Position numbers and translations under genes: made by a program
Notes under the pieces: model-generated
The model's database searches: none
What the model was told of the DNA's origin: nothing
What the model saw: only the letters and a program-made list of their open reading frames with translations
Assembly (NCBI GenBank): GCA_002894685.1
Contig: NCRC01000009.1
Location: 1 to 64,000 of the forward strand
Length of the DNA: 64,000 nucleotides
Direction: 5' to 3'
Source of the DNA: Salinivenus lutea
Lineage (GTDB): Bacteria > Bacteroidota > Rhodothermia > Rhodothermales > Salinibacteraceae
In this document: piece by piece, positions 54,727-57,998 of the stretch
Layout of the letters: each line of letters starts with the position of its first letter
How positions within the stretch are numbered: the stretch's first letter is position 1

Positions 54727-56706
54727 TTAGTCCTCCTCCAGAAATTCGCCGCGGGTGATGCGTTTCCGAAGGTCCTGGAACGACATCATTTTCTGCTGAA
54801 GGCGCTGCATCCGCTCCTCGTCGCCCGCCCGGGAGGCCGCAAACGCCTGCTCGCGGACCGCGTCGATGGCCTCGTCGACCCGGTCGAGCTTCAGGAACTT
54901 CATCGCGCTCTCGGCCGCCTCGTACGGCCGCTCGTTGAGGCGGGGGACGGGAATGTCTTCCCGCTCGGCCCAGTTCTTCGACGCCTCGTGCTCGTCCATC
55001 ATCACCGCCGCGGCGAGGCGCTGCAGCTCGTCGCCGTGCGCCCCCGAAAGGATGCGCTGCGGCTGCATCTGGTCGTTCTGGTACATCTGCACGAGCGTCC
55101 GCACCAGCTCGCGGGCCGGCCCTTCGGTAAACTCGTCGAGCGCCATGTGCCCCAACACGTGCGAGACCATGCGGGTGCCGTGCTCCAGCATCAGGCGGAG
55201 AAGCACCTTCTCTTCCGGGAGCAGAGAGCGGGACGACGCGTCCGGTGCCTCGTCCGAGGGGGGCGCGTCCGCCTCCTCGTCCGGCGGAGCGGACGGGGGC
55301 GGCGCCCCTTGGGTCGGGGCGCCCGCCGGCTGCGGGGCCCGCTGCGGATTCGCTTGTTCCTGCCGCCGGGCCTCCCGCTTCCGACGGCGTTTGTTCTGCT
55401 CCTCCAGCTGCTCGCGTTCCTCTTCAAGCATCCGGAAGAGGTCGGCGTCCGGGACGCCCGCCACCTCACTCGTCCGCGTCACGTACTCCCGGCGCAGGTT
55501 GGGGTCCGGGATTTGGGCCACGGCGGCAATAATCTGCTGCTGCACCTCCACCCGGTCCTCGGGCGTTTCCAGCTCCCCGGCCCGTCGAGCGCGCTGGTAC
55601 GAAAAGGCCGGCAGGTCCTGCCGGTGCTCGTCCACGTATTCCTCGAAGGCGTCTCCCCCCTTCTCCTGCACGAACGCGTCCGGATCGCTTCCATCCGGCA
55701 GCTCGACCGCATAGGCCCCCATGCCCTGCCGCAGGACACGCTTCAGCCCCCGCATGGCGGCGCGCCCCCCCGCCTCGTCCGCGTCGTAGAGGAGCAGGGC
55801 GCGCTTTGCGTAGCGGTCGAGCGTCTCAATCTGCCCCTCCGTGAGGGCCGTGCCGCTGGACGCCACGACGTTTTCGACGCCCGCCTGCGACAGACTGATC
55901 ACGTCCGTGTAGCCCTCCACCAGCAGCACTTCATCGGTCTGCCGGATGCTGCGCTTGGCCTGGCGGAGGCCGTACAGCACCTCCTTCTTGTGGTAGACCT
56001 TCGTCTCGGGAGAGTTGATGTACTTCGGCTGCTCCTTGCTCTCATCCAGGATGCGTCCGGCAAAGCCCAGCACCTTGCCGATGTGGGAGAAGATGGGAAA
56101 GATGACCCGGCCGCGGTAGCGGTCGTAGTAGCCGCTGCCGTCGTTGCGCGCCACCAGAAGCCCCGCCTTCTCCAGGATCTCGGGATCGAGCTGCTCGCTC
56201 TCCGCGGCCGTTCGGAGGGCGTCCCACTCGTCGGGCGCGTAGCCCAGCCCAAAGCGCTTGATCGTCTTCGGTTTGAAGCCGCGCTCCCGGAGGTAGTCGA
56301 GCGCCGGGCGTCCGCGGTCGGTTTGCGTGAGCTGGCGGTAGAAAAATCGCGCCGCGAACCGGAGGGCGTGCAGGATCGACTCGCGCTCGTTGGCCGCCTC
56401 CGGATCCCCCTCCTCCTCGGGCAACGGGATGCCGTAGCGCTCCCCCAGGATGCGCACGCTTTCGAGAAAGCCGACGCCCTCAATCTCCTGGATAAACTTG
56501 AACACATCGCCCCCATTCCCGCACCCGAAGCAGTAGTAGAGGTTCTGGTCCGGGTCGATGCTGAAGGAGGGCGTATCCTCGTTGTGGAAGGGGCACAGCC
56601 CCTTGAACCGCGACCCGCTCCGCTTCAACTGCACGTAGTCGCCCGCCACATCTACGAGATCGGCCGCGGCGCGGATCTCGTCGATCTTTTCGTCGGGGAT
56701 GGGCAT
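54727..56706 (-). CDS. dnaG: DNA primase
   Basis: The 659-residue primase that makes RNA primers at the replication fork. Order: CHC2 zinc finger (CPFHNEDTPSFS...YCFGCG, residues ~37-65), primase core, TOPRIM domain (VEGYTDVI and LYDADEAGG), an unusual Gln/Arg/Pro/Ala-rich linker near residues 430-490, then the C-terminal DnaB-binding helical domain. All catalytic acidic residues in TOPRIM appear kept. The linker is longer and more charged than in E. coli. A 49-residue lipoprotein gene lies 71 bp upstream on the same strand and probably shares its promoter. Confidence 0.96.
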   Translation of the reverse strand: MPIPDEKIDEIRAAADLVDVAGDYVQLKRSGSRFKGLCPFHNEDTPSFSIDPDQNLYYCFGCGNGGDVFKFIQEIEGVGFLESVRILGERYGIPLPEEEGDPEAANERESILHALRFAARFFYRQLTQTDRGRPALDYLRERGFKPKTIKRFGLGYAPDEWDALRTAAESEQLDPEILEKAGLLVARNDGSGYYDRYRGRVIFPIFSHIGKVLGFAGRILDESKEQPKYINSPETKVYHKKEVLYGLRQAKRSIRQTDEVLLVEGYTDVISLSQAGVENVVASSGTALTEGQIETLDRYAKRALLLYDADEAGGRAAMRGLKRVLRQGMGAYAVELPDGSDPDAFVQEKGGDAFEEYVDEHRQDLPAFSYQRARRAGELETPEDRVEVQQQIIAAVAQIPDPNLRREYVTRTSEVAGVPDADLFRMLEEEREQLEEQNKRRRKREARRQEQANPQRAPQPAGAPTQGAPPPSAPPDEEADAPPSDEAPDASSRSLLPEEKVLLRLMLEHGTRMVSHVLGHMALDEFTEGPARELVRTLVQMYQNDQMQPQRILSGAHGDELQRLAAAVMMDEHEASKNWAEREDIPVPRLNERPYEAAESAMKFLKLDRVDEAIDAVREQAFAASRAGDEERMQRLQQKMMSFQDLRKRITRGEFLEED

Positions 56707-56777
56707 GGGGTGGAGCGAAGGACGGGCAGCCGGCGCGAGGCGTATGTATGGACCGGACGCCGTTCAGATCCAGCCGG

Positions 56778-56927
56778 CTACACGTGGGCGCCGGGCCCGG
56801 TCACAACCTGAGACTGTTGCTGATCCCCCTCGTCCTCCACCGGCCCGACGTCGGGCTTATCGGCACACTGGCACGAGGCCAGTCCCGTGCAAAGAACCAG
56901 GGCAACGAAGAGAAGGAGCCGCTTCAT
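56778..56927 (-). CDS. Small lipoprotein upstream of dnaG
   Basis: A 49-residue reading frame: MKRLLLFVALVLCTGLASC then a short polar tail (QCADKPDVGPVED..., ending GPGAHV). The LASC lipobox with Cys19 and preceding hydrophobic run is a textbook lipoprotein signal. The mature part would be about 31 residues and rich in Asp/Glu/Gln. A promoter with a perfect dyad over its -10 lies 40-65 bases upstream. Entericidin-like or uncharacterised envelope lipoproteins have this size; function unknown. Confidence 0.72.
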   Translation of the reverse strand: MKRLLLFVALVLCTGLASCQCADKPDVGPVEDEGDQQQSQVVTGPGAHV

Positions 56928-56957
56928 GAGCTACGCGTTGGCTGTCCGGAGGGATGA

Positions 56958-56994
56958 GTGCCCGTAGAATAGCGGGCACGGCCGCCGGTCGCAA
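56958..56994 (-). promoter_or_regulatory. Promoter with dyad operator upstream of the lipoprotein-dnaG unit
   Basis: On the minus strand -35 TTGCGA (56994-56989), 17-base spacer, -10 TATTCT (56971-56966). A perfect 7-base inverted repeat GTGCCCG / CGGGCAC (56958-56964, 56973-56979) with 8-base centre TAGAATAG lies exactly over the -10. A repressor bound there would block the promoter. Confidence 0.6.
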
Positions 56995-57164
56995 GGACCC
57001 AGGGCGGGCGCCGCCCCGGATCCAAGCATTTTTCCGTCATTTTTCCGGTGGACGGCCGATTCGGCCTGGTGTCGCCTTTACAATGACGGCGGCGCTTGCC
57101 AGCTTCTACAGTCCAGAGTCAGACCTTTTCGCTTCCCTCATTTTTTCGGAGCCTCCGCTTTTTT

Positions 57165-57998
57165 ATGACCGATCTGCGCGAACGCATCCACACCCTCGCC
57201 GCTCAGGGCGACGACGTGAGCCGCGGCCCGGCCGGCAATGCCGTCGCCGACCTCGTTCAGGCCCTCAACGCCGGCGAGGTGCGCGCCGCCGCCCCGGCCG
57301 ACGACGGCAGCTGGACCACGAATGCCTGGGTGAAGGAGGGCATCCTGCTGGGCTTTCGGATCGGGCGGATGGTGGACTACTCGACCGATCAGTTTCCCTT
57401 CTTCGACAAGAACACGTTTCCCGTCAAGCCCCTCCAGAAGGCCGACAACGTCCGGCTCGTGCCCGGCGGGTCCGCGATCCGCACCGGAAGCTACCTGGCG
57501 CCGGGCGTCGTGTGCATGCCCCCGATGTACGTGAACGTGGGCGCGTACGTGGATGCGGACGCAATGATCGACTCCCACGCCCTGGTGGGCAGTTGCGCCC
57601 AGATCGGCCAGCGCGTGCACCTGTCGGCCTCGGCGCAGGTGGGCGGCGTGCTGGAGCCGGTCCATGCCGCCCCCGTCATCGTGGAGGACGACGTGTTTGT
57701 GGGCGGCAACGCCGGAATCTACGAAGGCTGCATCGTGCGGGAACGCGCCGTCCTCGCATCGGGGGTGACGCTCACCTCGTCGACCCGCCTCTACGACCTC
57801 GTGGAGGAGACGGTCTACACGGCCTCCGAGGACGACCTGCTCGAGGTGCCGGAGGGAGCCGTGGTGGTGCCCGGCTCGCGTTCGGTGGGCGGCGACTTTG
57901 CCGACGAGCACGGCCTTTCACTCTACGCGCCCATCATCGTGAAGTACCGCGACGCCAAAACCGACGCCGCGACGGTGCTTGAGGACACGCTTCGGTAG
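57165..57998 (+). CDS. dapD: Tetrahydrodipicolinate N-succinyltransferase
   Basis: Transfers succinyl from succinyl-CoA to tetrahydrodipicolinate in lysine and peptidoglycan precursor synthesis. The 277-residue protein has an N-terminal helical domain and the left-handed parallel beta-helix of hexapeptide repeats (residues ~105-235). [12 protein letters not shown] and [20 protein letters not shown] lead into [20 protein letters not shown], all DapD signatures. The start at 57165 ([12 protein letters not shown]) is the family N-terminus. A 5-bp hairpin CGGAG/CTCCG followed by a T run lies directly before the ATG. Confidence 0.95.

Follow-up and report, generated by a model that had tools for sequence, protein, structure and literature searches.

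The 49-codon open reading frame at positions 56778-56927 on the minus strand of the window (the whole 64,000-nucleotide stretch of DNA that was analysed) is almost certainly a real, conserved lipoprotein gene. It represents a new and apparently undescribed family among the very small lipoproteins, a kind already known, and the conserved part of its product, the lipidation-site Cys and the 12 residues behind it, is under purifying selection. Our explanation as a whole, to which we give an even chance, is that a lipid-anchored short linear motif, produced from a unit shared with the primase gene dnaG, would dock on a machine of the outer membrane. The features of the locus are listed in order of position:

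54727-56706, minus strand: dnaG, DNA primase, the downstream gene (NCBIfam TIGR01391, 449 bits at a cut-off of 283.6, and Pfam domains).
56707-56777, minus strand: spacer of 71 nt between the lipoprotein gene and dnaG, with no intrinsic terminator called on the minus strand.
56778-56927, minus strand: micro-lipoprotein gene, 49 codons plus stop (sequence, orthologues and selection).
56781-56834, minus strand: variable tail, residues 32-49, without predicted structure (alignment and pLDDT).
56835-56873, minus strand: conserved motif of the mature N-terminus, C19 to E31, CQCADKPDVGPVE (invariant residues, motif counts and pN/pS).
56874-56927, minus strand: signal peptide, residues 1-18, with K2 and R3, a hydrophobic stretch and the lipobox residues LAS (sequence and a predicted helix over residues 2-17).
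56958-56979, no strand: perfect 7/7 dyad over the -10 element, lineage-specific and without support as an operator.
56966-56971, minus strand: putative -10 element TATTCT (CTAT-CT invariant in six aligned congeners).
56987-56994, minus strand: putative -35 element TTGCGACC (invariant in six aligned congeners).
57165-57998, plus strand: dapD, the divergent neighbour (NCBIfam NF008808, 306 bits at a cut-off of 204; below the cut-off of the older dapD model TIGR00965, 188.3 of 375.4; start picked by eye).

The frame opens with ATG and its 49-residue product reads MKRLLLFVALVLCTGLAS followed by CQCADKPDVGPVEDEGDQQQSQVVTGPGAHV. It carries the sequence characteristics of a bacterial lipoprotein, i.e. 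a positively charged N-terminus, a hydrophobic stretch and a lipobox with terminal Cys (L16-A17-S18-C19), and the mature peptide comprises 31 residues beginning with CQCADKPDVGPVE. The genome of the window contains one match above cut-off to LspA (PF01252). Of three queries, one hit LPAM_1, the lipobox model of Pfam, and stayed below its cut-off (12.7 of 20 bits). In the model predicted with AlphaFold (mean pLDDT 68.5) residues 2-17 form a single helix and the remainder is unstructured, with block means of 54 for residues 31-40 and 48 for residues 41-49. Genes of 49 codons are below the size found by most gene finders. For the window protein and two orthologues no family of Pfam or NCBIfam was matched above cut-off. 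The preliminary description, which had announced an uncatalogued 49-residue lipoprotein with a perfect lipobox, was thus right on both points: the gene is real and its lipobox complete. Searches of PHROG returned nothing for the window protein and a weak match of one orthologue to an Rz-like spanin (E 0.26). Pfam DUF4995 was matched weakly (E 0.11 and 0.2, residues 1-25), the profile search of the PDB gave nothing useful (best E 0.86), and literature searches turned up no publication that looked relevant. The PG1828 family of small lipoproteins (NF050142) from Bacteroidota falls in a similar size class but differs from the window family, as it was matched by one of the three queries over residues 1-24 only, with 12.9 bits against a cut-off of 50.

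Orthologues are spread through much of one order, the Rhodothermales. An initial search with the window protein against 60 relatives gave hits at E≤1 in 54 genomes; many of the weak hits are chance. With a profile built from 18 orthologues, hits at E≤1e-3 were obtained in 62 out of 114 genomes from the order, a count that includes two genomes (G013 and G459) in which the match lies inside an unrelated frame of 638 or 246 amino acids and is probably due to chance. A draw of 394 genomes from the phylum yielded 58 matched genomes at E≤0.01, 33 of them outside the order; these 33 (E 2.7e-4 to 0.0097) were taken as chance, being mostly signal-peptide matches in longer frames. Scanning named genomes with the CQC pattern gave 27 loci under the names Salinivenus, Salinibacter, Roseithermus, Rhodothermales, Rhodothermia, Rhodothermaceae and Bacteroidetes/Bacteroidota, and the nearest named relative found was Salinivenus iranica CB7, whose protein is 98% identical. 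The lipoprotein is dispensable, because the profile found no match in family f3 or in most of f5, and in f14 the gene is missing from five of five stretches with dapD, the kinase and dnaG all in place. One genome (G034) has two different copies, L058 on contig C332 and L144 on contig C167, one of which has a dnaG match on its contig.

Counted from the lipidation-site Cys, the conserved part reads C-Q-C-x-x-K-P-x-[IV]-G-P-V-E. The residues C+1 (C19), Q+2 (Q20), C+3 (C21), P+7 (P25), P+11 (P29), V+12 (V30) and E+13 (E31) were invariant in all 18 orthologues picked by similarity. In a larger set of 54 distinct proteins, Q+2 was present in 52, V+12 in 48, E+13 in 47, K+6 in 45 and G+10 in 37, and the residue preceding the Cys was S, A or G in all 54; this set was gathered by a pattern demanding CQC or CLC together with the prolines, so that the invariance of C+3, P+7 and P+11 in it arises partly by construction. 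A re-scan that dropped the demand for the second Cys and kept that for the prolines yielded 39 different strings, and 35 of these had CQC or CLC; the other four (L071, L089, L267 and L270) were judged to be chance. C+3 is kept throughout, which indicates selection for a thiol at a distance of two residues from the lipid. Purifying selection on the motif is evident from pN/pS values of 0.21 for the motif and 0.73 for the signal peptide in the 54 proteins (1431 pairs), and of 0.19 and 0.52, respectively, in the 18 similarity-picked orthologues (153 pairs). Removal of the invariant C and P codons in the latter set raised the value of the motif to 0.26. The tail varies among orthologues in both length and letters. 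Mature lengths range from 16 to 48 residues (median 27), and the 16-residue mature form of L066-L068 is very short among lipoproteins. Judged from sequence and predicted model, the anatomy is that of a lipid anchor joined to a putative short linear docking motif.

We propose that the lipoprotein gene would head a transcription unit that continues into dnaG and that its product would be exported and cut by signal peptidase II. C19 is probably lipidated and the protein probably located in the outer membrane, given the Gln at +2, for which the sorting rule leads one to expect outer-membrane placement. The acyl chains would then reside in the membrane and the extended, Pro-rich motif would dock on a machine of the outer membrane, at a periplasmic or luminal face, thereby stabilising this machine or aiding its assembly, while the variable tail would be dispensable. 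That the lipoprotein is a motif-docking peptide we regard as slightly favoured. As its partner, the LPS translocon protein LptD would be the leading candidate by analogy with E. coli LptM, a tentative assignment that we consider doubtful. The lipoprotein belongs to neither the LptM nor the VirB7 family by the tests described below, though it may work like either of them.

The likeliest of the alternatives holds that the second Cys serves for covalent bonding, in a homodimer or a mixed disulfide, to an outer-membrane or periplasmic protein other than LptD, so that the lipoprotein would act as a peg in the manner of VirB7. VirB7 of type IV secretion is likewise a small lipoprotein, and it has a second Cys and forms disulfides with VirB9. 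The retention of C+3 throughout the family agrees with such a role, and the NCBIfam model of VirB7 (NF010433) gave the best of the weak matches: each of the three queries hit it (best E 0.0064), with a match that starts in the signal peptide and extends over the first six or seven mature residues. With 16.2 bits at most, however, these matches stayed below the cut-off of 60, which led us to reject membership, and no secretion genes were seen beside the lipoprotein at the loci examined, where the neighbours were dnaG, dapD, a ROK-type kinase and unrelated frames. We consider this alternative unlikely.

The comparison with LptM (YifL; PF13627 LptM_cons and NF047847) rests on architecture. Both are very small lipoproteins in which the lipid-bearing Cys and a short stretch behind it (about ten residues in LptM) are conserved and the tail is variable, and several orthologues of the window family read K-P-P-I where LptM has K-G-P-L. 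They differ in that the motif of the window family ends in GPVE and has a second Cys at +3, and in that its neighbour is dnaG whereas the E. coli LptM gene lies next to dapF. The family models did not join them. PF13627 gave no match at E≤10 for the three proteins, in a search whose HMMER filters drop most matches above about 0.1; among 113 genomes of the order it was above cut-off in none and below cut-off at E≤0.001 in two, and the E. coli control was matched. NF047847 was hit by two of the three queries over residues 1-19 only, with at most 11.2 of 27.7 bits, and by the window protein not at all. With no match above a curated cut-off, membership of the LptM family was rejected.

Two reports describe how LptM engages its partner. 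Next to the interdomain disulfides of LptD, the first ten mature residues of LptM touch the barrel and the hinge that leads to the beta-taco, and no more than the N-terminal region is required for co-purification (PMC12644819). The reports further place LptM between the two interdomain connections of LptD (PMC12644819) and its acyl chains at the lateral gate of LptD (PMC12644819, PMC10567701), and the latter states that E. coli LptM promotes LptD oxidation (PMC10567701). These descriptions, together with an extra Cys in LptD (YTTC-x-C) that occurs in the same part of the order as the lipoprotein, are in line with a more specific alternative, namely an order-specific LptM analogue whose second Cys takes part in LptD disulfide chemistry, either through a mixed disulfide with the extra LptD Cys or by helping to shuffle the long-range LptD disulfide. 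LptD sequences have YTTC-x-C where the lipoprotein occurs, and those of the 10 outgroup genomes and of families f10, f13 and f4, which lack the lipoprotein, have the first Cys only.

LptD_2 was found in 111 of 113 genomes of the order, and the presence of LptD therefore gives no phyletic signal; that LptD is nearly universal, yet the lipoprotein absent from many genomes of the order, also speaks against LptD as the partner. The extra Cys was present in all 20 lipoprotein-positive genomes among the first 40. Over 94 genomes (84 of the order chosen to cover its families and 10 of one outgroup family) it was found in 40 of 43 positive, 26 of 41 negative and 0 of 10 outgroup genomes, with G441 of f13 counted as lacking CxC although the alignment is misaligned there. 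A test on the tree found three usable pairs on starred branches (five on all branches) and p=1; the tree was computed with FastTree from 91 rows, gave long-branch warnings and had G441, G366 and G045 dropped as partial. A single branch common to both accounts for the overlap between CxC and lipoprotein, which is consequently not independent evidence. The three positive genomes without CxC (G014, G020 and G024; L197, L198 and L199) have lost both CxC cysteines of LptD, which almost all their relatives retain, and kept the CQC of the lipoprotein, which argues against an obligatory LptD disulfide. In view of these three, of the 26 of 41 negatives with CxC and of p=1, co-evolution of the LptD cysteines with the lipoprotein was rejected and kept as a lead only. 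An order-specific LptM analogue acting in LptD disulfide chemistry is very unlikely in our estimate. Equally improbable is its furthest extension, a lineage-specific, possibly covalent accessory subunit of the LPS translocon that may have as few as 16 residues and would hold the LptD gate, use its second Cys in LptD oxidation, replace LptM and, through expression from the primase operon, couple outer-membrane building to replication capacity.

Some further features of LptD were observed. The C-terminal Cys is Ala in G014 and G024 (G020 is not aligned there). The third Cys of the order (e.g. L157, L173 and L182) is lineage-specific, the compared sequences being YTTCxC and YTTCxL..DHPHY, and part of the window's genus has a fourth LptD Cys in a CxCW near the C-terminus.

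The lipoprotein gene is firmly linked to dnaG. Of 64 lipoprotein matches, 60 have a dnaG match on the same contig, and in all 60 of these genomes the lipoprotein gene lies upstream of dnaG on the same strand. The match-end distances between the two range from -10 to 333 nt in 56 genomes and from 857 to 1505 nt in four, bearing in mind that a late-starting dnaG match may make this distance larger than the actual gap. The stretches upstream of dnaG in 40 genomes without a profile match held no such CQC/CLC motif, which was found in 20 of 20 positive stretches. On its other side the lipoprotein gene is flanked by dapD in all 13 loci from the window's genus and, among 20 further positive stretches, by a ROK-type kinase in 10, the one kinase tested being named polyphosphate--glucose phosphotransferase. 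L031 has a subtilase-like frame in this place and L042 a methylase-like frame about 1 kb off (both named by eye). As this neighbour varies and dnaG is constant, it is with dnaG that the lipoprotein gene stays. The two genes are likely to form one transcription unit. ARAGORN called no tRNA in the whole window.

Several observations concern dnaG and its spacer. Repeats resembling CACAT-N5/6-CACATG were seen by eye in the dnaG spacers of about half of 12 aligned congeners; they are degenerate in the window (56707-56777) and none was seen in L017. Those of L006, L007, L008 and L011 resemble, by eye, a DnaA box with a single mismatch. In L047 (4188-8096; also in G428, G430 and G431) a DnaG frame of 1303 amino acids, open at the end of the locus, contains three DNAG_N and two Toprim_2 stretches; judged by eye, one catalytic core is complete and two are decayed. 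These three genomes belong to family f15, and the dnaG query hits their frame three times in succession, as though there had been a triplication of the primase core.

A promoter of the lipoprotein gene is credible, since TTGCGACC and CTAT-CT are invariant in six aligned congeners, which also share a G-AAAA stretch farther upstream. In the window TTGCGA stands 17 nt upstream of the -10 element. A generic sigma-70 scan (at least nine of 12 matches) of 56600-57300 called no promoter, and no terminator was found there on the minus strand. Among the upstream regions of 54 distinct orthologues (one of them only 33 nt long), TTGCGACC occurs in six. In the other subclade of the genus, five distinct orthologues (L007, L008, L010, L011 and L012) have a second conserved promoter-like element in its place, TTGTAAACC followed by TAGC(A/G)TTTT.

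The dyad that the preliminary description had placed over the -10 element does exist: it reads GTGCCCG-C-TATTCT-A-CGGGCAC, its arms pair perfectly and the hexamer lies within the 8-nt centre. Its proposed regulatory role did not hold up, and the dyad looks like chance. It is present in 2 of the 54 upstream regions, those of the window and the near-identical S. iranica, and four aligned congeners keep the -35 and -10 elements without it. The window holds 80 perfect repeats with 7-nt arms and spacers of 3-12 nt, compared with 67-93 in five shuffles, and when the 238-nt upstream region was shuffled 1000 times, at least one such repeat arose in 13.4% of cases. In the genome of the window the dyad pattern occurs four times (one exact and three one-mismatch copies), compared with seven times for a control read backwards, and the exact 22-nt pattern recurs nowhere else in window or genome. 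On these grounds (conservation in 2 of 54 regions, repeats at chance level and a commoner control pattern) an operator of a regulon was rejected; selection does not maintain this part of the locus, the one with the most regulatory appearance. The linkage to the primase gene put forward in the same description was confirmed as a conserved gene order with probable co-transcription, and the frame was indeed conserved upstream of dnaG in relatives. The suggested connection between envelope state and replication found no backing, as nothing linking them was found and a shared transcription unit is enough to explain the arrangement.

The constant position before dnaG and the promoter conserved in the near subclade could also suggest a frame that is mainly a leader setting dnaG expression, with a peptide of little importance. 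Such a leader would hardly account for an amino-acid motif under purifying selection and a complete lipobox, nor for match-end distances reaching 1505 nt and absence of the lipoprotein without loss of dnaG, and we regard it as highly improbable. A chance open frame in GC-rich sequence is practically out of the question: many other short frames are present around 56778-56927, but this one is beyond chance because its orthologues span an order, and its conserved motif, selection and fixed neighbour refute the idea.

The lipoprotein represents an apparently undescribed family spread through much of an order, in which the function must sit in about 13 residues and which is therefore easily accessible to tests by mutation and crosslinking. 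If docking on LptD were true, short lipid-anchored regulators of the LPS translocon would have arisen more than once, and outside Proteobacteria too.
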